From positions 1 to 31,950 of IMG/VR virus record IMGVR_UViG_3300046000_007851: a stretch of DNA of 31,950 nucleotides, one strand, 5' to 3'. The notes under the pieces are model-generated. The model saw nothing but the letters and a program-made list of their open reading frames with translations. It was not told the origin of the DNA and searched no databases. Shown one piece after another: positions 4,656 to 30,116 of the stretch (positions within the stretch are counted from its first letter, which is position 1; the number at the start of each line of letters is the position of its first letter). The DNA comes from a virus. The translations under genes and the position numbers were made by a program.

Positions 4656-4669
4656 AAAATAAAGATTAA

Positions 4670-5629: not shown

Positions 5630-5632
5630 TAA

Positions 5633-5639
5633 TATTTAT
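5633..5639 (+). promoter_or_regulatory. TATTTAT box touching the 5644 start
   Basis: AATATTTATTAATATGG: only four bases separate the box from the ATG. The same arrangement occurs before the HAD gene at 29289. If this is a promoter -10 element, the transcript would be leaderless. Confidence 0.4.
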
Positions 5640-5643
5640 TAAT

Positions 5644-5922: not shown

Positions 5923-5924
5923 CT

Positions 5925-5931
5925 TATTTAT
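5925..5931 (+). promoter_or_regulatory. TATTTAT box upstream of the GT9-like gene
   Basis: TTATTTATTTTTAT, 29 bases before the ATG at 5961, with a second AT-rich stretch (CTTTATAATTAAG) nearer the start. Confidence 0.35.
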
Positions 5932-5960
5932 TTTTATCTCATAGTCTTTATAATTAAGAT

Positions 5961-6890: not shown

Positions 6891-6912
6891 TAACCATAAA
6901 GTCAAAACAAAG

Positions 6913-6919
6913 TATTTAT
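6913..6919 (+). promoter_or_regulatory. TATTTAT box before the 6938 gene
   Basis: AAAGTATTTATTAAGAAAG, 18 bases before the ATG; nearly identical in flanks to the box at 4649 (AAAGTATTTATAAAATAAAG). Confidence 0.5.
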
Positions 6920-6937
6920 TAAGAAAGAATTTAATAA

Positions 6938-7240
6938 ATGCCAAACATAGTTCAGATAAATGGAATAACAGGTACATCACCATATGATATATATGTTTGT
7001 GATATAACATTGAATTATTGTTTTTCCGCATTCACCGCAACAACAATAACACCACCCTTCCAATTTCCTGTGCCACCACCATTAGATAATACCACCGAAA
7101 TTATTTTAAAGATAGTAGATTCGTTGGGTTGTGAGAAATTTATTTTATTAACTTGTGGTGTTTTATATGGTAAACAATTCGAGGACTTTGAGGTATTCTT
7201 ATTCCAAGATTCGGATATTTATCTATTTGAGGGGCCTTAA
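6938..7240 (+). CDS. Small beta-rich putative virion protein
   Basis: A 100-residue protein beginning MPNIVQINGITG, with two Cys pairs, a Thr/Pro-rich middle (TATTITPPFQFPVPPP) and an acidic aromatic tail. The composition (Thr, Pro, Cys, hydrophobic strands, no charged helices) matches the other display-type proteins of this region. It has no recognised domain. It is preceded by a TATTTAT box and followed after 37 bases by a glycosyltransferase gene. A small decoration or fibre-associated protein is the likeliest reading, by context only. Confidence 0.6.
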   Translation: MPNIVQINGITGTSPYDIYVCDITLNYCFSAFTATTITPPFQFPVPPPLDNTTEIILKIVDSLGCEKFILLTCGVLYGKQFEDFEVFLFQDSDIYLFEGP

Positions 7241-7277
7241 TAATTTACAACTGATTTCCTTTTAATATTTTTAAGAT

Positions 7278-8522
7278 ATGAAAATATTTGTACAGATAGC
7301 ATCGTATCGCGACCCACAACTTATTCCAACAATTAAATCAATGTTGGAAAATGCGAAAAAACCAAAAAATCTTAGAATTGGTATTGCAAGACAATTTCAT
7401 CCTGAGGATGGCTTTGATGATTTAACCGAGTATGAAAAGGACGATCGTTTTCGTATTTTAAATATTGATTACACAGAGTCAAAAGGAGTTTGTTGGGCAA
7501 GACACCAAGTACAACAATTATATAAAGGTGAGGAGTATACCCTTCAGATTGATTCTCATATGAGATTTGAGAAGGATTGGGACGACACGCTTATCAAGAT
7601 GATTAAACAACTCCAAAAGAAAGGACATAAAAAACCATTGTTAACAGGTTATGTTTCATCTTTTAATCCTGAGAATGATCCTGAAGGTAGAACACAAGAA
7701 CCCTGGAGAATGGCTTTTGATAGATTTACACCCGAAGGTGTTGTATTCTTTTTACCTGAAACAATACCAGGATGGAAGGAACTTAAAGAACCTGTTACAG
7801 CTAGATTTTATTCAGCTCACTTCTGCTTTACGTTAGGTCAATTCTCAACAGAGGTCCAACACGACCCTGAGTTTTATTTTCACGGAGAAGAAATCTCAAT
7901 CACCGTAAGGGCTTACACTCACGGATATGATTTATTCCACCCACATAAAACCGTTATTTGGCATGAATACACTCGTAAAGGTAGAACAAAACAATGGGAT
8001 GATGATAAAGATTGGTATAAAAGAAATACCGCTTGTCACATTAAAAATAGACAACTTTTAGGTATTGATGGTGAAAACTATTCTGGTAACACATCAGAAT
8101 GGTTTGGTACCGAAAGAACAATCCAAGACTATGAAAAATATGCAGGTCTTTTATTCGAAACAAGAGGAGTACAGCAAGAAACAATTGACAAGACATACCC
8201 ACCAAACACGTATGATTATAAAAATATTAAGGAATGGAAAAAATCTTTCTCTAGCATTTTTAAACATTGTATTGATTTAAGTTTAAGTCAAGTACCTGAA
8301 ACTGATTATGATTTTTGGGTGGTTGCATTCCACGATAAAGATCACAACACATTGTTTAGGCAAGACGCTGACGCTAACGAAATAGTTAGAATAAAATCAG
8401 ATCCTGACGGATATGGGAAGGTATGGAGAGAATTCCACACAACTCAACGTCCGGCTTATTGGGTAGTTTGGCCTCACTCATTATCTAAAGATTGGTGTGA
8501 AAGAATTGTGGGTAATTTATGA
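7278..8522 (+). CDS. GlcNAc-transferase family (GT60/Skp1-GnT1-like) glycosyltransferase
   Basis: This 414-residue GT-A enzyme belongs to the GlcNAc family (Pfam PF11397), whose characterised members transfer alpha-GlcNAc to Thr or hydroxyproline of proteins. Seen in the sequence: the family N-terminus IFVQIASYRDPQLIPTI at 3-19, GVCWARHQVQQLY at 70-82 (donor-binding helix), the DXD-equivalent QIDSHMRF at 90-97, FYSAHFCFTLG at 177-187, the acceptor/metal region FHGEEISITVRAYTHGYDLFHP at 201-222, and VIWHEY at 226-231. Residues about 330-414 form an extra C-terminal part. The leader is AATATTTTTAAGATATG, a variant of the TATTTAT box. It opens a plus-strand run of sugar and methyl transfer genes. 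Family assignment is confident; the protein-Thr acceptor is inference. Confidence 0.85.
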   Translation: MKIFVQIASYRDPQLIPTIKSMLENAKKPKNLRIGIARQFHPEDGFDDLTEYEKDDRFRILNIDYTESKGVCWARHQVQQLYKGEEYTLQIDSHMRFEKDWDDTLIKMIKQLQKKGHKKPLLTGYVSSFNPENDPEGRTQEPWRMAFDRFTPEGVVFFLPETIPGWKELKEPVTARFYSAHFCFTLGQFSTEVQHDPEFYFHGEEISITVRAYTHGYDLFHPHKTVIWHEYTRKGRTKQWDDDKDWYKRNTACHIKNRQLLGIDGENYSGNTSEWFGTERTIQDYEKYAGLLFETRGVQQETIDKTYPPNTYDYKNIKEWKKSFSSIFKHCIDLSLSQVPETDYDFWVVAFHDKDHNTLFRQDADANEIVRIKSDPDGYGKVWREFHTTQRPAYWVVWPHSLSKDWCERIVGNL

Positions 8523-8562
8523 TATTAATATCTCATAAAGGAATATTCAAAATACTTTCACA

Positions 8563-9399
8563 ATGATTGAGGTTACATATCAAAAACCTAATGGGTCGAC
8601 TTGGTCGGTTACTAATATGTATGATAAATTTTTCAATTATTTATCTGAAAATTATGAGTGTATCCATAACCCCCCAACTTGCGTTGGTTATGGATCACCT
8701 AATTCTCCACATCATATGACCATAAAAAATCTTTCTAACAACAAGTATTTTGTTGTTTCATATTGGGATTATACGGGGGATATTTATAACCCTAAATATG
8801 GTTGGGATGTAGATAATATGATGGGTTTATTTACATCAAGTGGAGTTCATTATGATTTCAAGTTTACCCCATTTTCATATATGACGTATTCCACAGAATT
8901 TGAGAGTTATTCCAAAAACATTGTACCGTTTGATAAAAAACCAAATAATGAATTATTTTTTAGGGGATATCTACACGGGATGAGAAGAAAATTACATTTA
9001 TTAAATGAGATCCCAATGAGTGAGGAAAGAATAGAACCTTTTGATTATTTTAAAGAATTAACAAATAATAAAATATGTTTGTCACTTAACGGTGTTGGTG
9101 AAATATGTTTTAGAGATATAGAAATTTTATCTTCAGGATCTGTTTTATTGAGACCATTATTAAAACAAAAATTACATAACGAATTAATACCAAACGTTCA
9201 TTACATACCTTTTGAAGAAAGTTTTGACCCCGCTGAACAAATGGAGATAATAAAAGAAAAATATAATGAAATAAAAGATAATGATGATCTATTAAGAGAG
9301 GTTTCTAAGAATGGATATCAATGGTATAGGGAAAATGGGACACCTCAATCTAATGTTGATATTTTAAAAAACATACTTAATATTGATTTAATAATGTAA
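8563..9399 (+). CDS. Putative glycosyltransferase (GT90/exostosin-like GT-B half)
   Basis: This 278-residue protein has the layout of CAP10/GT90 or exostosin-type enzymes: ELFFRGYLHGMRRKLH at 130-145, then KICLSLNGVGEICFRDIEIL at 170-189 followed by SSGSVLLRP, which corresponds to the donor-binding loop where such enzymes carry a G-x-x-C-x-R-x-x-E pattern. A helix with EIIKEKYNEIKDNDDLLREVSKNG follows, like the C-terminal helices of GT-B enzymes. The N-terminal 110 residues are aromatic-rich and unusual. It follows the GT60-like gene by 40 bases and precedes the next by 10, with no TATTTAT box, so it is internal to the operon. The class is moderately certain, the sugar unknown. Confidence 0.65.
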   Translation: MIEVTYQKPNGSTWSVTNMYDKFFNYLSENYECIHNPPTCVGYGSPNSPHHMTIKNLSNNKYFVVSYWDYTGDIYNPKYGWDVDNMMGLFTSSGVHYDFKFTPFSYMTYSTEFESYSKNIVPFDKKPNNELFFRGYLHGMRRKLHLLNEIPMSEERIEPFDYFKELTNNKICLSLNGVGEICFRDIEILSSGSVLLRPLLKQKLHNELIPNVHYIPFEESFDPAEQMEIIKEKYNEIKDNDDLLREVSKNGYQWYRENGTPQSNVDILKNILNIDLIM

Positions 9400-9409
9400 A
9401 AAAATAAAT

Positions 9410-9781
9410 ATGGAATACCCAATAAGTGAAATTTTAGATAGATACTCAATTGCAGTTTTAAAAAAACAAAGATTAGATGCTGATAATGATATTGAATTAA
9501 ATGATTTATCGGAAGTAATTGAGGAATATAAAAAAATTAATTCTCAAATTATCGAAACTTATATTGATAAATTGGTTTCTATTAATGGTGATATATGGGA
9601 TTTAGAATCTGACATTAGAAAAGGTAAAGAAGGTGAGTTAGGGTTAGAGGAAGTTGGTAGACGAGCAATAAGAATTAGAGAATTTAACAAAATTAGAGTT
9701 GGTTATAAAAATATAATTGTAGAAACTTTTGGTGAAGGATATAAAGATGTTAAAATGAATCATGCAAGTTCTGACGAATAA
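9410..9781 (+). CDS. Small helical DUF6165-like protein of glycan loci
   Basis: This 123-residue all-helical protein looks like the DUF6165 type often found next to glycosyltransferases: an N-terminal ISEILDRYSIAVLKKQRL segment, a central DIWDLESDIRKGKEGE stretch, then the conserved-style REFNKIRVGYKNII helix ending with GEGYKDVK. The role of that family is not established. Its 3' end overlaps the next start by 20 bases (9762-9781), pointing to coupled translation with the GT2-type enzyme. No transmembrane or signal sequence is visible. The family match is from memory of motif layout and is moderate. Confidence 0.6.
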   Translation: MEYPISEILDRYSIAVLKKQRLDADNDIELNDLSEVIEEYKKINSQIIETYIDKLVSINGDIWDLESDIRKGKEGELGLEEVGRRAIRIREFNKIRVGYKNIIVETFGEGYKDVKMNHASSDE

Positions 9782-10589
9782 GATAGTAATTTCCCTAACA
9801 ACGGTTCCCGAAAGATTGTCGTATGATGTTGAGGACGGTTTTAAATCGGTACTAAAATCTATTTGTAATCAGAATTACGATAACTATGAAGTACATCTAA
9901 ATTTACCTGAAATATATAAAGTAACTGGCGAACATTACATTATACCTGAATGGTTAGATGAATTACAAAAAGAACACCCACATTTAAAAATTTATCGTGT
10001 TGAGGATATGGGTCCTCCGACTAAAGTTATACCAACAATATTGAGAGAGTCTGATGAAACACTCCTAATTGTTGTTGATGATGATTTAATTTATCACGAA
10101 GATATGATCTTAGAACACATTAAATACCATATGGAATTACCTAATTCTGTTATCCTATATGATGGTAGAAGTTTAATGGGGTCAAAATATGGTGATTTAA
10201 GAGATTCTTGGGTTATATGTGTGACAAAACCAACAAGAATAAGAGGGATGTTGCAACATTATAAATCTGTTTCCTACCACAAAAAATATTTCCAAGAAGA
10301 TTTCTTTCAAGATTTTTTAGGTAAAACAAAGTCTGACGACATTTTGATGACATATTATTTTTTACATAAAAAAATAAAAATGTATGTGGTTCCTTACGAA
10401 AAAGATGTGGAAAAAATCCAAACCTATGATGAATGGTATAATTTTCAAGGAGTTACAACTTTTCCTGTTTTAAGACACTCAAATAGTTTAGGAAACACAG
10501 GTTGTAATCACCCAAAAATTTTAGAATTAGAAACAAAATTTTTTATACCGGATGAGTTTAAACGAATAGATACCGAAATAATTGATTGA
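9762..10589 (+). CDS. GT-A (family 2-like) glycosyltransferase
   Basis: This 275-residue protein begins VISLTTVPERL (9-19), typical of a GT-A nucleotide-sugar fold. VHLNLPE and YIIPEWLDEL follow, then DMGPPTKVIPTI at 82-93, and the metal-binding LIVVDDDLIYHED at 102-114 with D106-D107-D108 as the DXD motif. The C-terminal part DFLGKTKSDDILMTYYFLHKK carries a likely catalytic Asp pair. It overlaps the preceding helper gene and is followed after one base by an FkbM methyltransferase, so it belongs to the glycan operon. The transferred sugar is unknown. Confidence 0.8.
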   Translation: MQVLTNKIVISLTTVPERLSYDVEDGFKSVLKSICNQNYDNYEVHLNLPEIYKVTGEHYIIPEWLDELQKEHPHLKIYRVEDMGPPTKVIPTILRESDETLLIVVDDDLIYHEDMILEHIKYHMELPNSVILYDGRSLMGSKYGDLRDSWVICVTKPTRIRGMLQHYKSVSYHKKYFQEDFFQDFLGKTKSDDILMTYYFLHKKIKMYVVPYEKDVEKIQTYDEWYNFQGVTTFPVLRHSNSLGNTGCNHPKILELETKFFIPDEFKRIDTEIID

Positions 10590-10590
10590 T

Positions 10591-11280
10591 ATGGAATACT
10601 TTAATGAAATTAAAAAATGGGATGATTTACATTGTGAAAAACACGTAATGAATTTGGTAAATAATATAACCGAATTGTTAGAAAATAGGGGTATCAGTGA
10701 ACTTTATTATATTGATATTGGTGCTAATGTTGGAAAAGTTTATGATTTACTAAAAGAAAGAAATAATTTAAAGAAGGTTTGGATGTATGAGGCGAGCCCA
10801 ATGTTATTTGATTATTTAAAAATTAAATACGAAAAAGACGATAACGTAGTTTTATCTCACGGAGCAATTTCAAATACAGAAGGGACTGTACCATTTGATG
10901 AAACATCAATGTTATATCAAATAAAAAACAACGTCGAAGAGTTTAATTTTGGATTATCCAAAATCGGTAACTCACCAAATCAATTAGAAATTAACTCAAA
11001 CAAAATTTCTAACCTTATAGGGAATAACGAAGAGATATTTAACAACGTATCTTTTATTAAAATTGACACAGAGAATGTTGATTTTTTTATTTTAGATGAC
11101 TTAATCTCAGTTGTTGAAAAATTTAAAACAAAACCGATCATTGAGTTTGAGGTTAACTACAAATCAAGTACAATCACTAATGAAATGGCTCAAGATATAT
11201 TGAATAAATACGTGTTGGTTGGGTATAAACCTTTACGATTAGAGGACTGCTGGGGTGACGGAATATTAATACCAAACTAA
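10591..11280 (+). CDS. FkbM-family SAM methyltransferase
   Basis: A methyltransferase of 229 residues from the ATG at 10591; an upstream in-frame TTG at 10582 would add three residues but overlaps the previous stop. Motif I is YYIDIGANVGKVYDLL, the adenosine loop is VWMYEASPMLFDYL, and VSFIKIDTENVDFFIL corresponds to the FkbM D-x-E-G/N signature. FkbM enzymes O-methylate sugars or polyketides; here a methyl cap on a glycan fits the neighbours. It has no membrane segment. It lies 1 base after a GT and 4 bases before another methyltransferase. Confidence 0.8.
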   Translation: MEYFNEIKKWDDLHCEKHVMNLVNNITELLENRGISELYYIDIGANVGKVYDLLKERNNLKKVWMYEASPMLFDYLKIKYEKDDNVVLSHGAISNTEGTVPFDETSMLYQIKNNVEEFNFGLSKIGNSPNQLEINSNKISNLIGNNEEIFNNVSFIKIDTENVDFFILDDLISVVEKFKTKPIIEFEVNYKSSTITNEMAQDILNKYVLVGYKPLRLEDCWGDGILIPN

Positions 11281-11284
11281 TATT

Positions 11285-11968
11285 ATGAATGAAATTTTAA
11301 AAATTGCGGAAGAATTTAACAAAATACCAAAAAAGTATTGGGATAGTATAACATTAACAGGACATCAACACGATTTTGAGAGAAGTAAACCAGGTCCCTA
11401 CCTAAAAACTGCCGCCGAAATTGCTCGGGTTCTGAATATGAAGACGGTTGTTGAGATAGGATCAACAAGATTTGCGTTATCTCAAAAATGTTTAGATTAT
11501 TATAATGGTAATATGGATCCTTTTGTGTCCCCTCCGTGTTGTGCCGATGGTCACGGTGGTATAATTTGGTCATTAGAGGGGTTTGAAGTTTATTCGTGCG
11601 ATATAGACCCTAATTGTAAAACTCAGGCTGAGTGGTCATTTGGTAACATTAGAATACCGTTTCCTAACAATTTACACCTTCACATACCTGAAGATGGTAT
11701 TGAGTTTTTAAGTAACTTTGATAAAACAATTGATGTTTTATTTTTAGATGGTTGGGATACAGGTACCTATGAATATAGAGAAAAACATCTCGAGTCTTTT
11801 ATTACCGCTAAAGATAAATTAGCTGACGTTCATTTAATTCTAATTGACGATACCGACTTCAATATCGAAGGGGAGGGTAAAGATGCGTTTTTATCCCCAC
11901 ATTTATTAGAGTTAGGTTATTACTTGTTATTTGATGGGAGACAAAAATTATATATAAACAAAATTTAA
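11285..11968 (+). CDS. Class I methyltransferase-like protein
   Basis: This 227-residue protein has a Rossmann methyltransferase layout: VVEIGSTRFALSQKCL (motif I without the usual GxGxG), FEVYSCDIDPNC (acidic residue for the ribose), then IDVLFLDGWD and HLILIDDTD as later strands. The DGWD/DDTD acids resemble CmcI-type or metal-dependent methyltransferases. A Cys/His-rich insert (SPPCCADGHGG) after motif I is odd and could bind metal. It sits 4 bases after the FkbM gene and 8 bases before the HtrL-type glycosyltransferase. The degenerate SAM loop leaves activity uncertain. Confidence 0.7.
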   Translation: MNEILKIAEEFNKIPKKYWDSITLTGHQHDFERSKPGPYLKTAAEIARVLNMKTVVEIGSTRFALSQKCLDYYNGNMDPFVSPPCCADGHGGIIWSLEGFEVYSCDIDPNCKTQAEWSFGNIRIPFPNNLHLHIPEDGIEFLSNFDKTIDVLFLDGWDTGTYEYREKHLESFITAKDKLADVHLILIDDTDFNIEGEGKDAFLSPHLLELGYYLLFDGRQKLYINKI

Positions 11969-11976
11969 TATTAACT

Positions 11977-13656
11977 ATGAGTGATCATAAAATTACATTA
12001 GTCACCGGTTTATGGGACATAGGTAGAGGAGACCTTACTGAGGGTTGGTCTAGATCATTCGATCATTATTTAAATAAATTTAGTCAACTTCTTGAGGTTG
12101 ATTGTAATATGATAATATTTGGTGATCGTGAACTAGAGTTATTTGTAAAAGAAAGAAGGAGTAATGATAAAACTCAATTTATTTTAAGAGATTTAGAATG
12201 GTTTAAAAGTAATGAGTTTTACGGTCAGATACAACAAATAAGAAATAACCCAAAATGGTTTAATCTTGCTGGTTGGTTAAAGGACTCCACTCAAGCAAGG
12301 TTAGAGATGTATAACCCATTAGTTATGTCAAAAATGTATTTGTTACACGACGCATTACTTATGGATAAATTTGATTCTGATAAATTATATTGGATTGACG
12401 CTGGATTATCAAATACGGTAAATATGGGTTACTTCACTCACGATAATGTTCTTGATAAGATAGACAAGTTGTTTGATAATTTCACATTTGTTTGTTTTCC
12501 ATACCATGCCGATCGAGAAATACACGGGTTTGATATTGATAAGATGACTCAAATAACAAATGTTAGGGTAGATAAAGTTGCTCGTGGAGGTTTTTTTGGT
12601 GGAACAAAAGAATCTATTAGACAAATTAACACATTGTACTACGACTTAATGAAAACAACATTAAGTAAGGGTTTAATGGGAACAGAAGAAAGTTTATTTT
12701 CAATATTACTATATAATAATCCAACCTTAACTGAGTATGTTGAGATTAATCAAGATGGGTTAATGTATAGGTTTTTTGAGGATGTTAAGAACGACTCCGC
12801 CCAAGTTAAAACAATGTCTAACGGTAAAAAAGTTGAGGTTAAAACAAATGGTGAGGTTGGTCTATACGTTATTACATACAATAGTCCAAAACAATTTGAG
12901 ACATTAATTAATTCTATGATGGATTATGATATGGATTTTATTGTTAAAACAAAAAAGTTTTTACTAAATAACTCAACGGACTTATCCACAACACCGGAAT
13001 ACGAAAGATTATGTAACCAATATGGTTTTGAGCACATCAAAAAAGATAATATTGGTATCACAGGTGGTAGAGTTTTTATTGCGGAACACTTTGATAAAAC
13101 GGAAATGGATTATTACATATTTTTTGAGGATGATATGTTTTTCTATAATGGTGTGGATCAAACTTGTAAAAATGGATTTAACCGAAATACAAAAAAATTA
13201 TTTAAGAAAGTCCTACAAATTATAAGAAAAGAACAATTTGATTATCTTAAATTAAATTTTACAGAATTTTATGGTAGTCACGAAAAACAATGGTCTTGGT
13301 ATAATGTTGACCAAGAGTTTAGGAAGAATCACTGGCCGTTTAATCAAAATTTAGCCCATCACGGGGAAAGCCCAAATGTCCCAAATTTAGAATTTAAACA
13401 TATAAAATCACACGAAGGTGTTCCATACGCAACGGGTGAGGTATATTTATCTAATTGGCCAATCATTTTGTCTCGTGAAGGTAATTATAAATGTTATATC
13501 GAAACTAAATTTGATTATCCTTATGAGCAAACATTGATGTCTCATTGTTATAAACAAATGGTTAATGGTAGGGTTAGTGCTGGTGTTTTATTGATGACAC
13601 CGACGGAACATAATAGATTTGATTTCTATGAGGGAAGTTCAAGAAAAGAATTCTAA
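11977..13656 (+). CDS. HtrL/YibB-type plus GT-A two-domain glycosyltransferase
   Basis: A fusion of 559 residues. Residues 1-270 match the HtrL/YibB family (PF09612): ITLVTGLWDIGRGDL at 6-20, the NP-x-VMSKMYLLHDAL helix at 113-127, YWIDAGLSN at 138-146 (catalytic-type D-x-G), and RGGFFGGTKESI at 203-214. Residues about 295-555 form a second GT-A domain starting VGLYVITYNSPKQFETLINSM, with GITGGRVFIAEHF and the metal-binding FFEDDM (382-387). Both halves look intact. It closes the operon begun at 7278 and is followed by the paralogous Thr/Ser/Pro-linker proteins. It probably adds one or two sugars to a shared acceptor. Confidence 0.75.
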   Translation: MSDHKITLVTGLWDIGRGDLTEGWSRSFDHYLNKFSQLLEVDCNMIIFGDRELELFVKERRSNDKTQFILRDLEWFKSNEFYGQIQQIRNNPKWFNLAGWLKDSTQARLEMYNPLVMSKMYLLHDALLMDKFDSDKLYWIDAGLSNTVNMGYFTHDNVLDKIDKLFDNFTFVCFPYHADREIHGFDIDKMTQITNVRVDKVARGGFFGGTKESIRQINTLYYDLMKTTLSKGLMGTEESLFSILLYNNPTLTEYVEINQDGLMYRFFEDVKNDSAQVKTMSNGKKVEVKTNGEVGLYVITYNSPKQFETLINSMMDYDMDFIVKTKKFLLNNSTDLSTTPEYERLCNQYGFEHIKKDNIGITGGRVFIAEHFDKTEMDYYIFFEDDMFFYNGVDQTCKNGFNRNTKKLFKKVLQIIRKEQFDYLKLNFTEFYGSHEKQWSWYNVDQEFRKNHWPFNQNLAHHGESPNVPNLEFKHIKSHEGVPYATGEVYLSNWPIILSREGNYKCYIETKFDYPYEQTLMSHCYKQMVNGRVSAGVLLMTPTEHNRFDFYEGSSRKEF

Positions 13657-18808: not shown

Positions 18809-19936
18809 TTAAATTACATATATTTGTCTTGGCATCGCTCTAAACTTAAGTGACTTATTTAAGTTTTCTGCGAGTAACGCTTCTCTTTCCATAACTTTTT
18901 CAGGACGAAGTCTTGTTAATCTTCCTTCAGCACCTATTAGTTCATCGATTAATTTTGTTTTTTCATCTTTTGCTTCTGTTGCCAAAGACGTATAATCCAT
19001 AGTTAGATCTCCATCAGGAGCCTTTAAGTTACCACTAAACTTACCACGAACTCTTGATAGTGTTTCTTTACAATAAGCGGTAAACCATCTTCTGACCCAT
19101 ATCTGAGCCGGATTATTAAGCCTATCCCAACTGATTTTATTAAAAGGAACATCCGATGGTAATAAGACAATATCAGGATTATCTGCTAAACATTTATCTC
19201 TATCCCCTTGTGATGTGTCATAATACCAATACCAAACTTGACCTTTAGATAATTCCGCATTACCGAAATCGAATTTACCGCCAGGTGTATTTAAAAGGTG
19301 TAACGCCTTTTTACCACCTGGAAGTGCTGTAATATAATATGTTAACTCTCCCGCAAACATTCTTCGTTGTATGTTTACTTCTTGCATTCTAAGTAACATA
19401 TCAAACGCTGGTGTTAAATAATAACTTCCTGCCATATTACCAACTTGTGCGAGTCCTCCACCCCCACCTAAACCAGTTCCTACCCCAACACCGGCAAATC
19501 CACCGATACCAAACATTGTCGTATTTAAAGTTGATGGTGTAAACCATAAAACTTCATTTATTTCACGACCAGCTGGTATCTCATAAATTTGTTGATTAGG
19601 TACTAATTGTATGTAATCTTTTTTAATTTCCCAATCACCACCGGCCTGCAGACCAACAATTTTAGAATATGCGTAAGTGTATCTAGTTTCGAAATCTAAA
19701 CTTTTCGTGATGAAAGCTCGAGATAAAGATTGAGTTTCTAAATTTAAATTATTTAAAGTCGTCCATTGAGATTCAATTAACCAATCTTGAACGTATTGGG
19801 AATAATCGTCAATAGAATACTCCAATAGGGTATCCATCATTTCATCTTCTAACTCCACCGATCTTAAAGGTGCTCCTAATAAATGTCTTACTTTTTGGTA
19901 GAATTGACTTCTTTCTGGTTCGTTGATAATTGCCAT
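18809..19936 (-). CDS. Putative neck protein (T4 gp13-like)
   Basis: A 375-residue protein with a helical N-terminus (ERSQFYQKVRHLLGAP, then DDYSQYVQDWLIESQW) of the kind seen in head-tail connectors. A beta segment DYIQLVPNQQIYEIPAGREINEVLWF at 107-132 matches the style of T4-like gp13 neck proteins. An odd Gly-rich hydrophobic stretch at about 142-170 (GGFAGVGVG, GLGGGGGL) follows, and a helical C-terminus with a WVRRWFTAYCKETLSRVRGK segment. T4 gp13 (309 residues) caps the filled head and joins it to the tail. Similarity is by layout, not a catalytic motif, so the assignment is moderate. The Gly-rich loop could be a membrane- or DNA-contacting insertion. Confidence 0.55.
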   Translation of the reverse strand: MAIINEPERSQFYQKVRHLLGAPLRSVELEDEMMDTLLEYSIDDYSQYVQDWLIESQWTTLNNLNLETQSLSRAFITKSLDFETRYTYAYSKIVGLQAGGDWEIKKDYIQLVPNQQIYEIPAGREINEVLWFTPSTLNTTMFGIGGFAGVGVGTGLGGGGGLAQVGNMAGSYYLTPAFDMLLRMQEVNIQRRMFAGELTYYITALPGGKKALHLLNTPGGKFDFGNAELSKGQVWYWYYDTSQGDRDKCLADNPDIVLLPSDVPFNKISWDRLNNPAQIWVRRWFTAYCKETLSRVRGKFSGNLKAPDGDLTMDYTSLATEAKDEKTKLIDELIGAEGRLTRLRPEKVMEREALLAENLNKSLKFRAMPRQIYVI

Positions 19937-19972: not shown

Positions 19973-22177
19973 TTATTCATTTGTAGGACAAACGATCTTT
20001 TCTCTTTGGGTTGTTTTAACCGGTAATTCTTTTGTTACAAGAGTATCTTTATCCTTAAAGATATATCCTTTAATGGAGCTATATTCAGGTTTTATTCTAA
20101 AACGAATTGATAGCCTTTTTTCGTCACAACCTCTTTGACCTTTATTGGACCAATACAAATCAATATATTCTATAGGGATAATAAAATCTCCCTCATAAAT
20201 AATACCTGACATCTTTTGTTTTACTTTTTCTAAATACTCATCGGCACCTGAATTGTTAAGCAACCAAACATATAGTTTATCAATTAATTGATTATATGGG
20301 TCGATATAAATTTGTTTTTCGGGAGCTAGTGAACTCTGTTTAAATATTGAGAAAAATTCAGATAAGTAACTATCGATGAATGGATCCATCTTCTTAACTT
20401 CAAAATATGAGTTTGATGGGAATATTACTTTACCATCTTCGTCTTTAAGATCTTGTTTTGAAATTAAGTCCGCCTTAACGTAATATGTTCCACTTTTAAA
20501 CGATTTTGTTAAACACGATATTATTTTATCCGCTTGAATGTCTATCGCTTCTTCTCCTGAATGAACTTTTTTAATTACATCGATTAATTTTTCTTTTGCG
20601 TTGTCAGAACATTTATAATCCAATTGTAGTTTAGTTTGTTTTTTCTTGAAGAACTTTCCGGTAAATTTTTCTTCATACTTACTATGTTCTTTTTGCCTTG
20701 CGTATGCTAATAAACCCTCTAAGTTATCCGGAACCGTACTTGAATATCTTTGTCTGTTTAGGATTTTTTTAACTTCATTATCTTCATAATTTTTATCAAC
20801 AATAAAGTCAGAAATTAATTCTAAAAAGTTTACGGTTCTTTCTTGGTTCTGTAACGCCAATTTTATAATGACAGGAAATGTACCAACGTTCTTCTTAGCA
20901 AAAAACCCATCTAAAATAAAGATTGAATGTTCAAGTTCTCGTTTAAGGTAATCATCATTTAAATTATCTCTAAATTTTTTTAACTGACAATATTGAGATT
21001 CTTCCGTTTTAGATTGTTTACATAAGTAATCTATTTTTGAGTGTCTTCTTGGTGCAATCTCATTAATTAATGTTGATTCATTTAATTTTTTCTTAGAAGT
21101 TCTTTTAATAAAAAGGTCATTAACAAATTCCCAATTTACAACGTCCCAAAACTTTTTAATATATTCGTCTCTTTTGTTTTGGTATTTTAGATAATAAGCG
21201 TGTTCCCAAACATCAAGACCAAGAAGTGGATAACCACCACCTTTAACGATACCCATTAAAGGATTATCTTGATTTGGTGTGGACATAATTTTTAACTTAC
21301 CATCCTTTGCAAGATATAACCAAGCCCAACCAGATCCAAAACGATCTTTAGCCGCTTCGTTAAATTCATCCTTCATCTTTTTTATGTTTCCAAAATCAGA
21401 TGTTATCTTTTTTAATATTTCACCTTTCGGTAATTGTTTCTTCGGGGATAGCATTTTCCAAAACAAAGCGTGGTTAAAAGATCCGCCCGCATTATTCCTA
21501 ACCTTATCGTCAAATTTACCAATGGATTTAATAATCTCCTCAAGATCCATATCACCTTCTTTGTCTTTAAGTGATTTGTTTAATTTATCCACATAACCTT
21601 TGTAATGTTTGTTGTAGTGGATATCCATAGTTTTTGAATCAATGAATCTCTTAAGTGATGAGTACGAGTAAGGTAATTTCTCAATCCCGATTTTTTTCAT
21701 TTCAACTATTAAGTTTTCCTTAATTGTTTGTTTCTCGGTTATTAAAAGTTGTTCGTTAATAATCATCAACCTTTTTTCAATACCTCTACTCTCAAACATT
21801 AACTCTTGTATCTCGGGGTGTTTTTTCTCAAACATTTTAATTAATTGACCAGCAAACGCATTTGCTTCGTCTTCATTCTTCCCTCCAATATCAGGACCAA
21901 CTTGTCTTTTAAGAATTTTCATTTGGTGTTCGTGTACCCACTCGTGAGCCAAAGTTCTCAATACATCCCTATTAAGTCTCCCTTTAGATAAGATTTTTAA
22001 TTCGGAATCCATTGTTCTACTACCTGTGGACATTTCACCTTTTCTATCGCTTAAAAAAGTAACTTTTAAATCATTCTTTAAAGGGTATTTGGTTTGTAAA
22101 AAAGCAATAAATTTTTTAGCAAGATCTTTATCTTCCTTAGACATATCGCAATTTACGTGTTTGATTGAAACTCTCAT
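19973..22177 (-). CDS. Zn-peptidase-like / Mn-superoxide dismutase fusion
   Basis: This 734-residue protein has three parts. Residues 1-120: LAHEWVHEH with the HExxH pair H78/H82, then NEDEANAFAG (102-109) supplying a third acidic ligand, like the minimal zincin of ImmA/IrrE-type proteins. Residues about 162-357: a full Fe/Mn superoxide dismutase domain with IEKLPYSY, TMDIHYNKHYKGY (metal ligand H187; H191 and Y195 second sphere), GGSFNHALFW (H236), RFGSGWAWL, NQDNPLMG (Q303) and GLDVWEHAYYL (D322, H326). All four metal ligands are present, and G232 with Q303 fits the Mn type (SodA) rather than the Fe type. Residues 370-734 are unrecognised. SOD converts superoxide to peroxide and oxygen. The start is fixed by the ATG at 22177, five bases after a TATTTAT box. 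The neck-like gene follows 36 bases downstream, so this may be a virion or late protein. The SOD assignment is very sure; joint function is unknown. Confidence 0.9.
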   Translation of the reverse strand: MRVSIKHVNCDMSKEDKDLAKKFIAFLQTKYPLKNDLKVTFLSDRKGEMSTGSRTMDSELKILSKGRLNRDVLRTLAHEWVHEHQMKILKRQVGPDIGGKNEDEANAFAGQLIKMFEKKHPEIQELMFESRGIEKRLMIINEQLLITEKQTIKENLIVEMKKIGIEKLPYSYSSLKRFIDSKTMDIHYNKHYKGYVDKLNKSLKDKEGDMDLEEIIKSIGKFDDKVRNNAGGSFNHALFWKMLSPKKQLPKGEILKKITSDFGNIKKMKDEFNEAAKDRFGSGWAWLYLAKDGKLKIMSTPNQDNPLMGIVKGGGYPLLGLDVWEHAYYLKYQNKRDEYIKKFWDVVNWEFVNDLFIKRTSKKKLNESTLINEIAPRRHSKIDYLCKQSKTEESQYCQLKKFRDNLNDDYLKRELEHSIFILDGFFAKKNVGTFPVIIKLALQNQERTVNFLELISDFIVDKNYEDNEVKKILNRQRYSSTVPDNLEGLLAYARQKEHSKYEEKFTGKFFKKKQTKLQLDYKCSDNAKEKLIDVIKKVHSGEEAIDIQADKIISCLTKSFKSGTYYVKADLISKQDLKDEDGKVIFPSNSYFEVKKMDPFIDSYLSEFFSIFKQSSLAPEKQIYIDPYNQLIDKLYVWLLNNSGADEYLEKVKQKMSGIIYEGDFIIPIEYIDLYWSNKGQRGCDEKRLSIRFRIKPEYSSIKGYIFKDKDTLVTKELPVKTTQREKIVCPTNE

Positions 22178-22182
22178 TACAA

Positions 22183-22189
22183 ATAAATA
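22183..22189 (-). promoter_or_regulatory. TATTTAT box (minus strand) before the SOD fusion gene
   Basis: On the minus strand GGGGATATTTATTTGTAATG, five bases before the ATG; no Shine-Dalgarno sequence is visible. Confidence 0.45.
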
Positions 22190-22208: not shown

Positions 22209-23978
22209 TTACCTTCTCTTGTTTATAAGTTTAAGGATTTCTTCCGCCACATCACCAGTACTTTCAATAACCCCATCACCCATTACGGTTCTAATTATTT
22301 CTTTCTTACGATTAAGGATATCATAAATCGCACCCTCAATGGTATTTTCGAATAACGGATAATAAACCAATACATTTGATTTCTGACCATAACGATATGC
22401 TCTGTCCTCAGCTTGTGCGTGTTCTGCAGGTACAAAAGATAAGTCATTCATAATAACAACCTCAGCGGCTGTTAATGTTAAACCAACACCTGCAGCTTTT
22501 AAGTTACCAACAAATACCTTTATCTTGTCGTCGTTTTGGAACTGGTCAACAGCCTGTTGTCTCATTGCGTTAGAACAACTACCATCAAGATAAACGGCTT
22601 GTTTACCGAAATGTTGATAGATTGTTTGGAGTGTGTCCGTAAAGTTGGTGAATATAATTACCTTCTTTCCTTGATCTAAAATATTCTCCGCAAAATCGAT
22701 TGTTGGTTTTGCTTTTTCATTTGCAATCACTTTTCTAACTTTCATTAACTTTGAAAACTGAACCGTAAGTGAAGACGATTCATCGGGATTTTTATCGTAC
22801 CAATCAAAGTATTCACCCATAAGTTCTTCATATTCTTTGGATTTCAACCTTAAATAAACAGGACTGATGATTTTATCGGGTAAATCTAAAACATCCTCCT
22901 TCAAACGGCGAAGAATTTGTTTCGAGGTTCTATCACGTAATTCCTCAAGATTCGATGCCCCCGTTACATTCCATACTTTTCTTTTACCTGCTGTAAACTG
23001 AAACCCTTGACAATAACGAATCGCATAAGCTTTCCAATTTTGAGCAACAGGACTCTCAATTAAGTTTAGTAAGTTGTAATAGTTCATAGGTCGAGATGTC
23101 ATAGGAGTTCCCGTTAATAACCAAACTCTATCTATTTTTTTTGCAAAACTATTAATTATTTTTGTTCTTTGAGCCTGAACATTTGAAATCATATGTGCTT
23201 CATCTAAAATAACGAGATCAAAATTACTTTGTAATAAAAGTGATTCATCTTTTTTCTTTGGGTCTGAATCGTAGAAATTCTTTAGAATATCGTAATTCAT
23301 AATCACAAAATCGGATTCTGTTGAGAATTTCTTTCCTTCCGCAATAAAAACAGATCGGTCAGAATAATTCTCAATCTCTCTTTGCCAGTTAATCTTTAAA
23401 GACGCGGGACAAACAATTAATATTTTTTTAACACCCGTCTCTAACGCGGCAATAATTGTTGATGTTGTTTTACCAAGACCCATATCATCAGCCAAAATAA
23501 ATCTTTTTGACCCCGCCAATTTTTCAATCGCAATCCTTTGATGATCTAACGGTGGTCGGTGAGAGTACTTTGAATAATCAATCTCAACTTTTTCTATCTT
23601 GTGGGTTTTAATGAGTGCCGATTTTGGAACCCAAAACTCACTTAACTTATCGTTATCAAAAAATTTACCCCAAATATGATACGACTTTTCTTTCTCAACC
23701 AAAAGTTTTTCTATGAATATTTGTTCGGGGACTTGTAGTAGATATCTTTCTTCTGAAAACTTTTTAGCAAAGTAAGAATCCAACTCAACCCACTTTCGAG
23801 CCACCTTAGGTGTTGTGTCGTAATACGTCGTAATGTAATCTGCTTGAGTTCTTGTTGGGTAAAATTTACTTGATACTTCCTTCTTATTTTTTAAATAAAG
23901 TATATAGTTATTCGCACCACTATAGGTGTCGAGCAAATCCAACGCCTTATGTTCAATAAGTGATTTAGTATTCTCCAA
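22209..23978 (-). CDS. SNF2/superfamily 2 DNA helicase-translocase
   Basis: This 589-residue SF2 ATPase of the SNF2 class has PLDHQRIAIEKL (Q-motif region, 143-154), Walker A ADDMGLGKTTS (163-173), VCPASLKINWQREI (Ia), DEAH at 259-262, LLTGTPMTSRP (287-297), then the second RecA half with KVIIFTNFTDTLQTIYQHF, KAAGVGLTLTAA and the arginine-finger motif QAEDRAYRYGQ. The layout resembles SMARCAL1-like annealing helicases and could do the repair/replication-fork job of T4 UvsW. It starts with TTG at 23978 and has no in-frame ATG nearby; an in-frame stop lies 12 bases before the TTG. The leader on the minus strand is A-rich (TATTTTTATTAAAAAG). It is the first gene of the minus-strand run 23978-18457. 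Confidence 0.9.
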   Translation of the reverse strand: MENTKSLIEHKALDLLDTYSGANNYILYLKNKKEVSSKFYPTRTQADYITTYYDTTPKVARKWVELDSYFAKKFSEERYLLQVPEQIFIEKLLVEKEKSYHIWGKFFDNDKLSEFWVPKSALIKTHKIEKVEIDYSKYSHRPPLDHQRIAIEKLAGSKRFILADDMGLGKTTSTIIAALETGVKKILIVCPASLKINWQREIENYSDRSVFIAEGKKFSTESDFVIMNYDILKNFYDSDPKKKDESLLLQSNFDLVILDEAHMISNVQAQRTKIINSFAKKIDRVWLLTGTPMTSRPMNYYNLLNLIESPVAQNWKAYAIRYCQGFQFTAGKRKVWNVTGASNLEELRDRTSKQILRRLKEDVLDLPDKIISPVYLRLKSKEYEELMGEYFDWYDKNPDESSSLTVQFSKLMKVRKVIANEKAKPTIDFAENILDQGKKVIIFTNFTDTLQTIYQHFGKQAVYLDGSCSNAMRQQAVDQFQNDDKIKVFVGNLKAAGVGLTLTAAEVVIMNDLSFVPAEHAQAEDRAYRYGQKSNVLVYYPLFENTIEGAIYDILNRKKEIIRTVMGDGVIESTGDVAEEILKLINKRR

Positions 23979-25866: not shown

Positions 25867-28800
25867 ATGGCAACAAACAGTAAGGTTTTTGTTTCTCCTG
25901 GTGTATATACTTCTGAAGTTGACTTAAGTTTTGTAGCACAAAGCGTTGGGGTAACTACATTAGGTATTGCAGGTGAGACTTTAATAGGTCCTGCTTTCGA
26001 ACCGATCTTTATTACAAGTTTCGATGAATTCCAAACCGTATTTGGTGGGACTTCACCTGAAAAATTTGTTAATACTCAGATCCCTAAATACGAAGCGGCC
26101 TACATCGCAAAAGCATATTTACAACAATCTAACCAATTGTTTGTAACTAGAATATTAGGTTTATCTGGTTATGATGCGGGACCATCTTGGTCAATAACAA
26201 CGGTTGCAAACGTTAATCCTGCAACAATCAATCAATGGTGTTTAAGTTCTGTAACTGATTTTGATACTTGTGTTACAACTTGTGTGACACCTAAAGTATT
26301 ATCATTCTCAGTACCATTTACGGCTTGTACTAATGGAGAACAAACGATCGGATATAACGGATCATTCCCTTCAATTATAGAGGATATTCTTGCACAACAA
26401 TATGAAGAATTTAATGGGGACACATCAACATTAGAAGCTCAAATTAATAGTTTGATATTTGGTGTAATTACAAGTGATAATCCGTACACCGCTGAAGACG
26501 AACAAATCGCATATTTTGGTTCTATCGATACAGATGACTACAACACATTAAATGGTGCTGGTTGGACGGCAGAAACAAACGTATTCGAAGTCCCTTCAGT
26601 TTCGTTGGATGCAACTGATCTTATGTCATCATTAAATGACTCTTGGTACTACGCATTATTTGCTAACACTGGTAATACAAATTATTCAGGTTATTCATTC
26701 TTTACATATGTGTCAGGTTTAACGGCTTACTACCCTAACCCAACATCAACTCCTCAAGCGTCGGCAACACCGACACCAACACCATCATTTGTTAACCCTT
26801 GTATTACCCCATCACCTTTTACTTCACCAACACCAACACCAACACCGGTTAATATTGATTGTTATTCAGGTACGGTTGTGGGTAAAATTTATTACTACAC
26901 GGGGACATCTTATGTTGATTACGATAACGTAGTTGTTGCAACTTTAAGATCAAGAGGTTTATCAACTTATACCACAGACACAAACCCAATGTATTCAGTT
27001 ACGGGTGTAACAGATGTTTCTTTAGATATGACAGGACAATATTCTGGTGTTCTTAAGAACCCTTATTTAACATTTGCGGTAAATGCAAAAGATAAATTTG
27101 GAACAAACTTTACGTTTGAAACATCATTAACACAAAATGATCCTGAGTATATCACAAAAGTGTTTGGAGTTAGTAACTTCCAAAAACCAAGAATTGAGGT
27201 TCCAATATTTGCGGAAGAAGTATTCCAATCATTCTTAAATTATTCTTGGAAAAAAGGATACATTAGAGGATTAAACTCTGAGTTTATTGAATTAGATTCT
27301 GCTCAAAGCGGTGACCCTAATTCAATTGGGTGGTACTTAGACAGATGGCAAACACCTAACTCACCTTGGGTTGTATCTGAATTAAGAGGTAATAAAGTTT
27401 ATGACTTATTTAGATTCTATACAGTTTCTGATGGTGATGCGGCAAACACATTAGTTAAAATATCGATTATTAATCAAACATACAACAACTTAACGTTTGA
27501 CGTATTAATTCGTGATTATTTTGATACCGATGCAAATCCAGTGGTTATTGAGAAATACACTAATTGTACGATGGATCCGGGACAAAATAACTTTATCGGT
27601 AATAAAATCGGAACATTAGACGGAGAATACATATTGAATTCTAAATATGTTATGGTTGAAATGAATGAGGACGCACCTATCGATTCACTTCCTTGTGGAT
27701 TTAATGGATTTAATTTTAGAAATTATGCGGGAGCTAACTCACCATTCCCAATCATTAAAGGTAAATACGATTTCCCTGGTGAAGTTATTTATAACCCACC
27801 ATTTGGTTTATCAACAGGTAACGATGATGCTTTAATTAGCCCAGGAGACAATGTAAGAAGAACATACTTAGGTATATCTAATAGCCTTGGATGGGATCCG
27901 GCTTACTTCGAGTATGTTGGTAAGAGAAATCCAAACAACACTTGTGATATAGATGGTTTACCATTTAATTACAGGTCAGCAGGTTTCCATATGGATGTTA
28001 ACGCTAGTGGATTAACAATCGGACCTGAGTTCTCAACAAGTGGTCAAACAAGATTTATTTGTGGTAACTCACCGTTCATTACAGATCCTGAATTACCAAC
28101 AAATGCTTACTACAGATTATTCGCACGTAAATTTACATTCTTAGTACAAGGTGGATTTGACGGATGGGACATCTATAGAGAGTGGAGAACTAACACGGAC
28201 GAATTCGAAATCGGTAGAAGAGGGTTCTTACGTGGATCTTGTCCATCAACTAGATACCCTAACGCAACAGGATGGGGAGCATTTAAACAGATTTCTCTTG
28301 GTGATGGTACTCAGAATTGGGCGAATTCAGATTATTACGCATACCTATTGGGTCAACAAACATTCGCTAACCCTGAGGCAACAAACATTAATGTATTCGT
28401 TACCCCTGGTATTGATTATGTTAATAATAGTAACTTGGTTGAGTCGGCAATTAATATGATCGAATTCAGTAGAGCGGATTCACTTTATGTGTGTACAACT
28501 CCTGATTATGATTTGTATTTACCAACAACAACAGGTATTGACGGATTTATTTACCCAACAGAAGCGGTTGATAATTTAGATAACACAGGTATTGACTCTA
28601 ACTACACGGCAACTTACTACCCTTGGGTATTAACTCGTGACAGCGTTAACAACACTCAAATCTATATTCCACCAACGGCTGAGGTAACAAGAAACTTGGC
28701 GTTAACCGATAACATCGCATTCCCTTGGTTCGCGGCGGCAGGTTACACTCGTGGTATTGTTAATTGTGTTAAAGCTCGTAAGAAGTTAACTCAAGAAGAT

Positions 28801-29217
28801 AGAGACATTCTATATGTTGGTAGAATTAACCCAATCGCAACCTTCTCTGATGTTGGTACGGTAATTTGGGGTAATAAAACTCTTCAAGTTAGAGAATCTG
28901 CACTTGATAGAATCAACGTTAGAAGATTGTTATTACAAGCTCGTAAATTAATTTCAGCGGTGTCTGTAAGATTATTGTTTGAACAAAACGACGCACAAGT
29001 AAGACAGGACTTCTTAAACGCGGTGAATCCAATCTTAGATGCAATCAGAAGAGATAGAGGTCTTTACGACTTTAGAGTAACGGTTTCTTCAAGTCCTGAG
29101 GATATTGATAGAAATCAATTGACAGGTAAGATTTACATCAAACCTACAAGATCTCTTGAGTTCATCGACATCACATTCTACATTACTCCAACAGGAGCAT
29201 CGTTTGAGAATATATAA
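25867..29217 (+). CDS. Tail sheath protein (T4 gp18-like), oversized with inserted domains
   Basis: A 1116-residue contractile sheath subunit, far longer than T4 gp18 (659). The N-terminus VSPGVYTSEVDLSFVAQSVG (9-28) followed by GETLIGPAFEPIFITSFDEFQTVFGG is the canonical sheath opening with the strand that handshakes neighbouring subunits. The last ~150 residues (FPWFAAAGYTRGIVNC, ARKKLTQEDRDILYVGRINPIATF, VRESALDRINVRRLLLQARK, then EFIDITFYITPTG) are the canonical C-terminal sheath domain. Extra material fills about residues 105-800, including a Cys-rich segment (C125-C154) and a Pro/Thr linker at 291-328 like that of the display paralogues. The inserts would project outward from the contracted or extended tail. 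A GAAA-loop terminator follows the stop. Confidence 0.92.
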   Translation: MATNSKVFVSPGVYTSEVDLSFVAQSVGVTTLGIAGETLIGPAFEPIFITSFDEFQTVFGGTSPEKFVNTQIPKYEAAYIAKAYLQQSNQLFVTRILGLSGYDAGPSWSITTVANVNPATINQWCLSSVTDFDTCVTTCVTPKVLSFSVPFTACTNGEQTIGYNGSFPSIIEDILAQQYEEFNGDTSTLEAQINSLIFGVITSDNPYTAEDEQIAYFGSIDTDDYNTLNGAGWTAETNVFEVPSVSLDATDLMSSLNDSWYYALFANTGNTNYSGYSFFTYVSGLTAYYPNPTSTPQASATPTPTPSFVNPCITPSPFTSPTPTPTPVNIDCYSGTVVGKIYYYTGTSYVDYDNVVVATLRSRGLSTYTTDTNPMYSVTGVTDVSLDMTGQYSGVLKNPYLTFAVNAKDKFGTNFTFETSLTQNDPEYITKVFGVSNFQKPRIEVPIFAEEVFQSFLNYSWKKGYIRGLNSEFIELDSAQSGDPNSIGWYLDRWQTPNSPWVVSELRGNKVYDLFRFYTVSDGDAANTLVKISIINQTYNNLTFDVLIRDYFDTDANPVVIEKYTNCTMDPGQNNFIGNKIGTLDGEYILNSKYVMVEMNEDAPIDSLPCGFNGFNFRNYAGANSPFPIIKGKYDFPGEVIYNPPFGLSTGNDDALISPGDNVRRTYLGISNSLGWDPAYFEYVGKRNPNNTCDIDGLPFNYRSAGFHMDVNASGLTIGPEFSTSGQTRFICGNSPFITDPELPTNAYYRLFARKFTFLVQGGFDGWDIYREWRTNTDEFEIGRRGFLRGSCPSTRYPNATGWGAFKQISLGDGTQNWANSDYYAYLLGQQTFANPEATNINVFVTPGIDYVNNSNLVESAINMIEFSRADSLYVCTTPDYDLYLPTTTGIDGFIYPTEAVDNLDNTGIDSNYTATYYPWVLTRDSVNNTQIYIPPTAEVTRNLALTDNIAFPWFAAAGYTRGIVNCVKARKKLTQEDRDILYVGRINPIATFSDVGTVIWGNKTLQVRESALDRINVRRLLLQARKLISAVSVRLLFEQNDAQVRQDFLNAVNPILDAIRRDRGLYDFRVTVSSSPEDIDRNQLTGKIYIKPTRSLEFIDITFYITPTGASFENI
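26737..26850 (+). repeat. Pro-Thr linker repeat inside the sheath gene
   Basis: Imperfect CCAACA repeats encode NPTSTP, ATPTPTPS and SPTPTPTP blocks, residues 291-328 of the sheath protein. The codon pattern resembles the repeat at 15154-15276. Confidence 0.75.
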
Positions 29218-29266: not shown

Positions 29267-29277
29267 ATTTATGGTGA

Positions 29278-29284
29278 TATTTAT
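29278..29284 (+). promoter_or_regulatory. TATTTAT box touching the HAD gene start
   Basis: GATATTTATTAATATG, four bases before the ATG at 29289. It lies inside the extra codons of the alternative upstream start at 29271, which argues that 29289 is the true start. Confidence 0.45.
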
Positions 29285-29288
29285 TAAT

Positions 29289-30116
29289 ATGAATTACAAA
29301 AAAATTGTTAGAGAAGTTATATCTGAGATCATTCACGATCAAATGAAACCTACAATGAAGTATTATGCTTTTGACTGGGATGATAATCTAATGTATATGC
29401 CAACTAAAATTTATCTTAAAGACGATAAAGGAAAAAGTGTTGGTATGTCGACGGAAGATTTTGCAGAGTATAGAACCGAAATCGGTAAAGAACCTTTTGA
29501 GTATGAAGGACACACTATCGTATCGTTCGATGAGAACCCTTTTAGGGACTTTAATGTCCCGGGTGATAATCAGTTCTTAAAGGACGCGATGAAAGCTCCT
29601 ACAGGTCCTGCATGGAGTGATTTTGTTGAGGCGGTTAATAACGGATCAATATTCTCAATTATCACAGCTAGAGGTCACACACCTTCAGTTCTTAAAAATG
29701 CGGTTTACAATTTAATCAAGAAAAACAAACACGGAATAAGTGAAAAAGAATTGGTTAAAAACTTAAGAAAATATCGAGAGTTGGCAGATGAAGAAGATTT
29801 AAGTGATGACGAATTAGTAAGAACTTATTTAGATATGAACAAATATCACCCTGTAAGTTTCGGAGAAGGTTCGGCTACCAACCCTGAAGAGTCAAAAGTA
29901 AAAGCAATGAAAGGATTTATGACTTATGTTCAAGACCTTTCTAGACAATTACAAGAAAAGGCATTTATGAAAAACAAGATAAGTAATTACTTTGTACCTA
30001 ATGTAGGCTTTTCAGATGATGACTTAAGAAATGTACAAGCTATGAAGAAGCATTTTAGTGATGAAGAAGGATTAGATATATATCATACTACTAAAGGAAA
30101 GAAAACTAAATATTAA
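29289..30116 (+). CDS. HAD-superfamily hydrolase-like protein
   Basis: This protein of 275 residues (ATG at 29289; an upstream in-frame ATG at 29271 would overlap the box and abut the terminator) has HAD motif I at YYAFDWDDNL (nucleophile D29, D31) and motif II at FSIITARGH (123-130, T126). Together they suggest a phosphatase or phosphotransferase. The middle third is helical with an acidic LADEEDLSDDELV segment. The family includes polynucleotide 3'-phosphatases and nucleotidases; the substrate here is not evident. A start-proximal amphipathic segment YKKIVREVISEI could be a targeting helix. It is placed between sheath and tube genes and has its own box after a strong terminator, so it is probably transcribed separately. 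Confidence 0.75.
   Translation: MNYKKIVREVISEIIHDQMKPTMKYYAFDWDDNLMYMPTKIYLKDDKGKSVGMSTEDFAEYRTEIGKEPFEYEGHTIVSFDENPFRDFNVPGDNQFLKDAMKAPTGPAWSDFVEAVNNGSIFSIITARGHTPSVLKNAVYNLIKKNKHGISEKELVKNLRKYRELADEEDLSDDELVRTYLDMNKYHPVSFGEGSATNPEESKVKAMKGFMTYVQDLSRQLQEKAFMKNKISNYFVPNVGFSDDDLRNVQAMKKHFSDEEGLDIYHTTKGKKTKY

Follow-up and report, generated by a model that had tools for sequence, protein, structure and literature searches.

The closest described counterparts of the superoxide dismutase (SOD) analyzed in this study are bacterial SODs of the Mn subtype, such as the MnSOD of Sphingobacterium sp. T2 (PDB 6gsc/5a9g), with which it shares the two domains, the metal ligands and the glycine/glutamine pair. 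Viruses also encode SODs. The Cu/Zn-SOD of chlorovirus PBCV-1 (A245R) is a late gene product, is found in the virion and is proposed to lower superoxide at infection (PMC7019647). Fe/Mn SODs occur as stand-alone proteins in giant phages, for example PA5oct-like Pseudomonas phages and Vibrio phage 2.275.O. Small zincins are encoded by Kyanoviridae, for example Synechococcus phage S-SRM01 (QPX48222.1). In T4, short N-terminal propeptides direct internal proteins, and even foreign proteins, to the inside of the head (PMC5694885), the protease gp21 cleaves by the rule L/I-X-E (PMC9026906) and gp23 loses an N-terminal stretch of 65 residues (PMC9958956). In both T4 and SPN3US, internal head proteins are cleaved and some of them are ejected (PMC5694885, PMC9026906). 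The cargo proteins of crAss001 are likewise phage-encoded, stored in the virion (capsid and tail) and ejected (PMC10172136).

The gene analyzed in this study lies in a window of 31,950 nucleotides (the whole stretch of DNA analyzed) and encodes a zincin, a linker, a Mn-type SOD and a variable C-terminal module on one chain. Unlike the bacterial MnSOD, the phage SOD is embedded between the zincin and the variable module, and in the tree the phage SODs group as a single long-stemmed clade, placed among the SODs of Bacteroidota and others. A245R differs in belonging to the unrelated Cu/Zn family, in being stand-alone and in coming from a eukaryotic virus. The stand-alone SODs of the PA5oct-like phages and Vibrio phage 2.275.O are 28-30% identical to the window SOD protein, have no zincin and, in the Vibrio phage, stand in another gene context. 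The S-SRM01 zincin has the HExxH motif and the ExEANAxAG signature in common with the window zincin, at about 30% identity; it differs in being a stand-alone protein of about 130 aa encoded among clustered replication genes, with no SOD. With the T4 internal head proteins (IPI-IPIII and Alt, whose propeptides are cut by gp21) the system shares (L/I)xE motifs, an S77 protease and Gp23 in relatives, and short N-terminal tags; the candidate sites here, however, are internal joints between enzyme domains, and packaging is putative. No SOD or zincin is described among the crAss001 cargo, whose packaging was shown by structure and mass spectrometry, whereas we infer it here. The literature searched contained no account of a SOD-zincin fusion and no description of a phage SOD inside the virion.

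Table 1. Features of the zincin-SOD gene and its surroundings. Positions are those of the window unless a locus is named.
Feature	Position	Strand	Evidence
Whole gene (zincin, linker, Mn-type SOD, variable C-terminal module)	19973..22177	(-)	ORF, 734 aa, ATG start
Minimal zincin domain, residues 1-128	21794..22177	(-)	AF2 pLDDT 92; Foldseek Wss1, M61, IrrE-like; conservation
HEWVH zinc-binding motif, residues 78-82	21932..21946	(-)	H78, E79, H82 invariant in 93/93
E102-D103-E104, probable third zinc ligand	21866..21874	(-)	Conservation
Linker, residues 129-161, (L/I)xE ending at E142, E148, E159; candidate propeptide/prohead-protease site	21695..21793	(-)	Only conserved (L/I)xE columns in core; N-terminus of zincin-less SODs
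Mn-type superoxide dismutase domain, residues 162-357	21107..21694	(-)	Pfam, PDB, Foldseek; ligands invariant in 117/117
Second junction KKKLNESTLINEI, residues 362-374, (L/I)xE ending at E367, E373	21056..21094	(-)	38/38 C-extensions with motif
C-terminal module, residues 375-734, exchangeable between relatives	19976..21055	(-)	No Pfam/PHROG match; several unrelated alternatives
Promoter-like element TATTTATT, 4 nt before ATG	22182..22189	(-)	8th base differs from family TATTTAT[AC]
SNF2-type helicase, upstream neighbour of conserved slot	22209..23978	(-)	Pfam SNF2-rel_dom E 2e-31; phrog_62; synteny
Head-tail adaptor (neck), downstream neighbour of conserved slot	18809..19936	(-)	phrog_211 E 1.4e-9; synteny
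SOD-less slot protein of G002, natural version	L261:9207-10172		Both joints and C-terminal domain kept

Domains of the zincin-SOD protein

Analysis of the SOD domain revealed matches to both Fe/Mn SOD profiles far above their cut-offs: Sod_Fe_N at residues 166-244 (E 6.8e-21) and Sod_Fe_C at residues 250-354 (E 1.5e-40), with scores of 75 and 137.8 bits against curated cut-offs of 27 and 20.9 for PF00081 and PF02777. Bacterial MnSODs in the PDB match residues 167-356 (E 1.9e-64), that of Sphingobacterium best. In the Foldseek search with the full AF2 model, all of the matches listed were SODs and, because they saturate it, this search is uninformative on the C-terminal module. The residue placement of the original prediction (H187, H191, Y195, G232, H236, W284, Q303, D322 and H326) was confirmed; these nine residues, including the metal ligands H187, H236, D322 and H326 and the second-sphere H191 and Y195, are invariant in 93/93 fusion cores and in 117/117 non-redundant phage SODs. 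The predicted Mn type also agrees with the larger set, G232 in the N-terminal domain and Q303 in the C-terminal domain forming the pair of the Mn subtype throughout the 117 sequences. In Fe/Mn SODs a Gly/Gln outer-sphere pair predicts Mn, and cambialistic members exist; the probable Mn subtype of the window SOD rests on this established family knowledge. Overall, our analysis suggests an apparently working SOD with an intact active site.

At the zincin domain, H78, E79, H82, E102 and E104 were found to be invariant in the 93 fusion cores, in keeping with the HExxH domain and the acidic third ligand near residues 102-104 that had been proposed. E102, but not E104, is invariant in all 27 zincins of alignment A6, which includes the S-SRM01 group, and E102 is probably the better candidate for the third zinc ligand. 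Residues 1-128 in isolation were modelled by AF2 with pTM 0.88 and the pLDDT given in Table 1. The closest solved folds found by Foldseek are Wss1 and an M61 aminopeptidase, and several viral fold neighbours are annotated IrrE-like. The window zincin gave no match to Pfam peptidase families, and none of 14 zincins reached the cut-off of Peptidase_M78 (IrrE/ImmA), to which four match weakly (best E 0.045). The model and the conservation pattern indicate a real zincin-like domain, whose proteolytic activity is putative. The same minimal fold was observed inside other large proteins of uncultured phages (BFVD models A0A6J5R4H4, A0A6J5M1C6 and A0A6J5MCV5) whose annotations are AAA, amidoligase and cytidyltransferase; the minimal zincin may therefore be a recurrent fusion partner.

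Distribution and exchangeable modules of the conserved slot

Scans of IMG/VR found 251 relatives with the window protein as query and 389 with the zincin-SOD core alignment, where hits may match the zincin alone. The distribution counts are lower bounds because each search is limited to its best 80 loci. Readable IMG/VR loci yielded at least 107 different zincin-SOD proteins. Where the flanks suffice, the gene order is sheath, w245 and w240, then helicase, SOD gene, neck adaptor and w184, then DNA polymerase. The downstream gene, noted earlier as neck-like, is a head-tail adaptor match (Table 1), and the phage origin of the zincin-SOD gene is supported. Fusion-bearing records reach 304 kb, and the carriers form a large group of uncultured giant tailed phages. 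The fusion was found neither in the cultured phages of the collection searched nor in bacterial genome contigs, where 18 of 18 hits of a short-peptide-pattern scan, which is non-exhaustive, were SOD only; the earlier statement that no such fusion was known thus holds for the cultured phages and bacterial genomes searched. The helicase resembles, among others, those of Rhodothermus phage RM378 and a Bacteroides phage, and this similarity together with a MAG bin makes Bacteroidota as host only a guess. A Fluviicola SOD was considered as donor or host gene and rejected, as its contig is phage-like and a 222-kb IMG/VR record contains the identical SOD.

Misassembly of a bacterial sod with a phage gene had been named as a way in which the fusion could be spurious. 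Nothing was found in favour of this explanation, the one close MAG hit (Fluviicola) being itself a phage contig, and the occurrence of at least 107 distinct fusion proteins on many independent contigs, with a common gene order, excludes both chance and misassembly; the residual likelihood is negligible. The zincin-SOD fusion is confirmed as genuine and non-artefactual. At one locus (L069:7965-10142) an in-frame stop, at a position corresponding to about residue 192 of the window protein, interrupts the fusion gene; it is either a sequencing error or real.

Comparison of the slot contents revealed zincin-SOD, SOD without zincin, and zincin-SOD followed by one of several unrelated C-terminal domains. 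The C-terminal domain of about 360 residues is present in the window protein, as described earlier, but it is not a fixed part: 43 of the 107 fusions end right after the SOD, and the rest carry several unrelated domains. The C-terminal module of the window protein has no family match in Pfam or PHROG; in some relatives, motifs like those of PD-(D/E)XK nucleases were recognized by eye in this module, again with no Pfam/PHROG match. Among the 77 loci of the fourth scan, 16 have a zincin-less SOD in the helicase slot, some of them followed by a C-terminal domain, and one (L330) is a bare SOD with no linker. In one record of 318 kb (G002), whose sheath is 68% identical, the SOD of about 190 residues is cleanly missing from the slot protein, which keeps the linker and the second junction; its C-terminal domain is almost the same as that in locus L395. 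This linker match was made by eye (INEMKKIEIEKL against LNEMKKIGIDKL), as the automatic alignment misplaces the linker. The zincin is a separate gene elsewhere in G002 and in a further record (G085). The slot variants, the SOD-less G002 protein and the separate zincins of G002 and G085 indicate that zincin, SOD and third domain are exchangeable units. This modularity, the zincin-less SODs in the slot and the SOD-less record were unforeseen by the original prediction.

Two further regions of the window deserve mention. Glycosyltransferases and methyltransferases cluster densely at positions 83-13656; among the proteins encoded there are one of 1191 aa with domains of both activities, a GlcNAc transferase and an HtrL/YibB-like protein. 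The tail sheath (25867-29217, plus strand, 1116 aa) matches known phage sheath families, in its best stretch, only over the last ~215 residues.

Motifs at the domain joints and the shared upstream element

Analysis of 44 core sequences below 90% identity found (L/I)xE in at least 91% of sequences at only three columns, those ending at E142, E148 and E159, all of which lie in the 33-residue linker; the last of these is just ahead of the SOD start. The linker holds 3.4 such motifs against 1.6 after shuffling, and the zincin and SOD domains hold fewer than their shuffled counterparts. The linker itself forms the N-terminus of most zincin-less SODs. At the other joint, all of 38 diverged C-extensions carry (L/I)xE within their first 35 residues (51% expected), with a mean of 1.92 motifs at the start against 0.66 shuffled and 0.2-0.5 further downstream. 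(L/I)xE is a short motif that was noticed before it was counted, and the core and C-extension counts come from different joints.

The protease that would recognize such sites was found in relatives. Of six records tested, the four largest each encode an S77 (gp21-family) protease (PF03420, E about 1e-23) and a Gp23 capsid protein; in G010 the protease gene lies at 184049-184774. The 32-kb window is too short to show the protease. All four of these Gp23 proteins have ENQASFLINE followed by A near residue 60, matching (L/I)xE. In one record (G010), a helical N-terminal tag such as MKRIIRLTESDLARIVKRVINE was found on 19 of 285 proteins against 3 of 1580 internal windows, by a pattern written after examples had been seen. 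A search of G010 with the linker profile gave no strong second hit; a profile of the shorter N-terminal tag did work. Pfam analysis of ten G010 proteins, mostly tagged, identified almost none of them, the exception being one VanY-like peptidase, itself untagged. The N-terminus of the fusion protein is the zincin, with no capsid-targeting tag of 10-20 residues, and its (L/I)xE segment is internal.

Similar tags were observed elsewhere. Short unrelated proteins of G010 (loci L264-L278, for example 234639-238362) share N-terminal MKRIIRLTESDLARIVKRVINE, many of them with TATTTAT[AC] just upstream. The contig of the Fluviicola MAG bin (JAJTEO010000009.1, loci L317/L318) is giant-phage-like, and many of its ORFs start with tags such as MSNKITLSELRKLIKQVINE; its stand-alone SOD, the one with an identical copy in the 222-kb record, starts with a short tag of its own. 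In the window, a 281-aa protein between the sheath and tube genes (29271-30116, plus strand) has its likely start at Met7, begins with the tag-like MNYKKIVREVISEIIHDQ followed by a HAD-like FDWDDN motif, and may be another tagged head protein.

Analysis of the upstream regions revealed the element TATTTAT[AC] at a fixed distance before neck (67 of 70 loci), w240 (61 of 62), sheath (47 of 61) and the SOD gene (55 of 80), with about three expected for each after shuffling. It also precedes w136 in 20 of 35 loci, is uncommon before the polymerase (4/42) and is absent before w245, w184 and w292. In G010 it precedes the protease, portal, tube and most tagged genes, and it is absent upstream of the capsid and core genes. 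The T4 late promoter TATAAATA was not clearly above chance in G010 and was dropped for TATTTAT[AC]. We infer that TATTTAT[AC] acts as a late promoter. The earlier suggestion of a late or virion-associated enzyme thus gained strong circumstantial support from the shared upstream element, the (L/I)xE joins and the S77 protease and Gp23 of relatives.

Proposed packaging model and alternative explanations

The explanation that we favour, at a probability of roughly 55%, is that the protein is a late, head-packaged polyprotein that would be cut during head maturation and ejected with the DNA. Each part of this model has a precedent, in PBCV-1, T4, SPN3US or crAss001. A modular polyprotein would be synthesized late in a giant phage with a T4-type head (Gp23, gp21/S77 protease), and the (L/I)xE segments ahead of the SOD and of the C-terminal module would be both capsid-targeting propeptides and S77 cleavage sites. 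Held in the prohead core by these segments, the polyprotein would be cut by the S77 protease at head maturation into zincin, SOD and, if present, the third protein; a cut, packaged protein would give semi-tryptic peptides beginning MKKIGIEKLPYS. These products would be packaged alongside the DNA and enter the host by ejection. There the SOD would clear superoxide that arises at entry as infection disturbs respiration, and the zincin and the third module would have targets of their own in host or phage. Against this model stand the position of the putative tag, which in the fusion is internal and not, as in T4 internal proteins, at the N-terminus; the upstream element, which is missing before the G010 capsid and core genes and deviates in its last base in the window; the finding of S77 and Gp23 in relatives and not in the window; and the brevity of a motif that was seen before it was counted. 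The broader proposal, that a widespread giant-phage clade packages an active Mn-SOD in its capsid as a protease-processed polyprotein with exchangeable domains, reusing prohead-protease sites as joints, is more tentative, falling a little short of even odds. Under the same reading, enzymes would be swappable in the ejected payload because prohead-protease sites would serve as domain joints.

The main rival is an intracellular auxiliary enzyme that protects the infected cell late (host respiration, phage nucleotide synthesis), with nothing packaged, the zincin and C-terminal module contributing other activities on one chain and (L/I)xE marking helical linkers only. Giant phages in culture, PA5oct-like phages and Vibrio phage 2.275.O among them, have SODs annotated as stand-alone genes with no sign of packaging, and SOD is a common entry among phage auxiliary genes (PMC12542629), both of which fit this rival. 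We nevertheless regard it as unlikely, as it offers no reason for the recurrence of one motif class at both joins, at the start of SODs that lack the zincin and ahead of each of the unrelated C-extensions, or for the gene's tie to neck and tail genes. Cleavage of the linker by the zincin itself, freeing the SOD in the cell with no role for the prohead protease, is suggested by the intact zincin directly preceding the linker and by the SOD start after E159, which resembles a native SOD N-terminus; the zincin-less SODs nevertheless retain the same linker, the zincin is encoded apart in G085 and G002, and the second joint carries the same motif, so that self-processing seems improbable. Still further down the scale is the option, raised in the original prediction and compatible with the adjoining neck adaptor gene, that the SOD fold serves the neck or head as an inactive structural or scaffold domain. 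It is disfavoured because the active site is completely conserved: ligands, second-sphere residues and the Mn-type Gly/Gln pair, none of which a scaffold needs, are invariant in 117 diverged sequences, and the G002 slot protein does without the SOD altogether.

The SOD-less natural record (G002) provides a ready comparison. If the joints are prohead-protease sites, a search for helical tags of the (L/I)xE type could point, from sequence alone, to proteins that uncultured giant phages may eject. If true, the model would also suggest that superoxide at DNA entry matters to phages, as has been proposed for PBCV-1 in algae.
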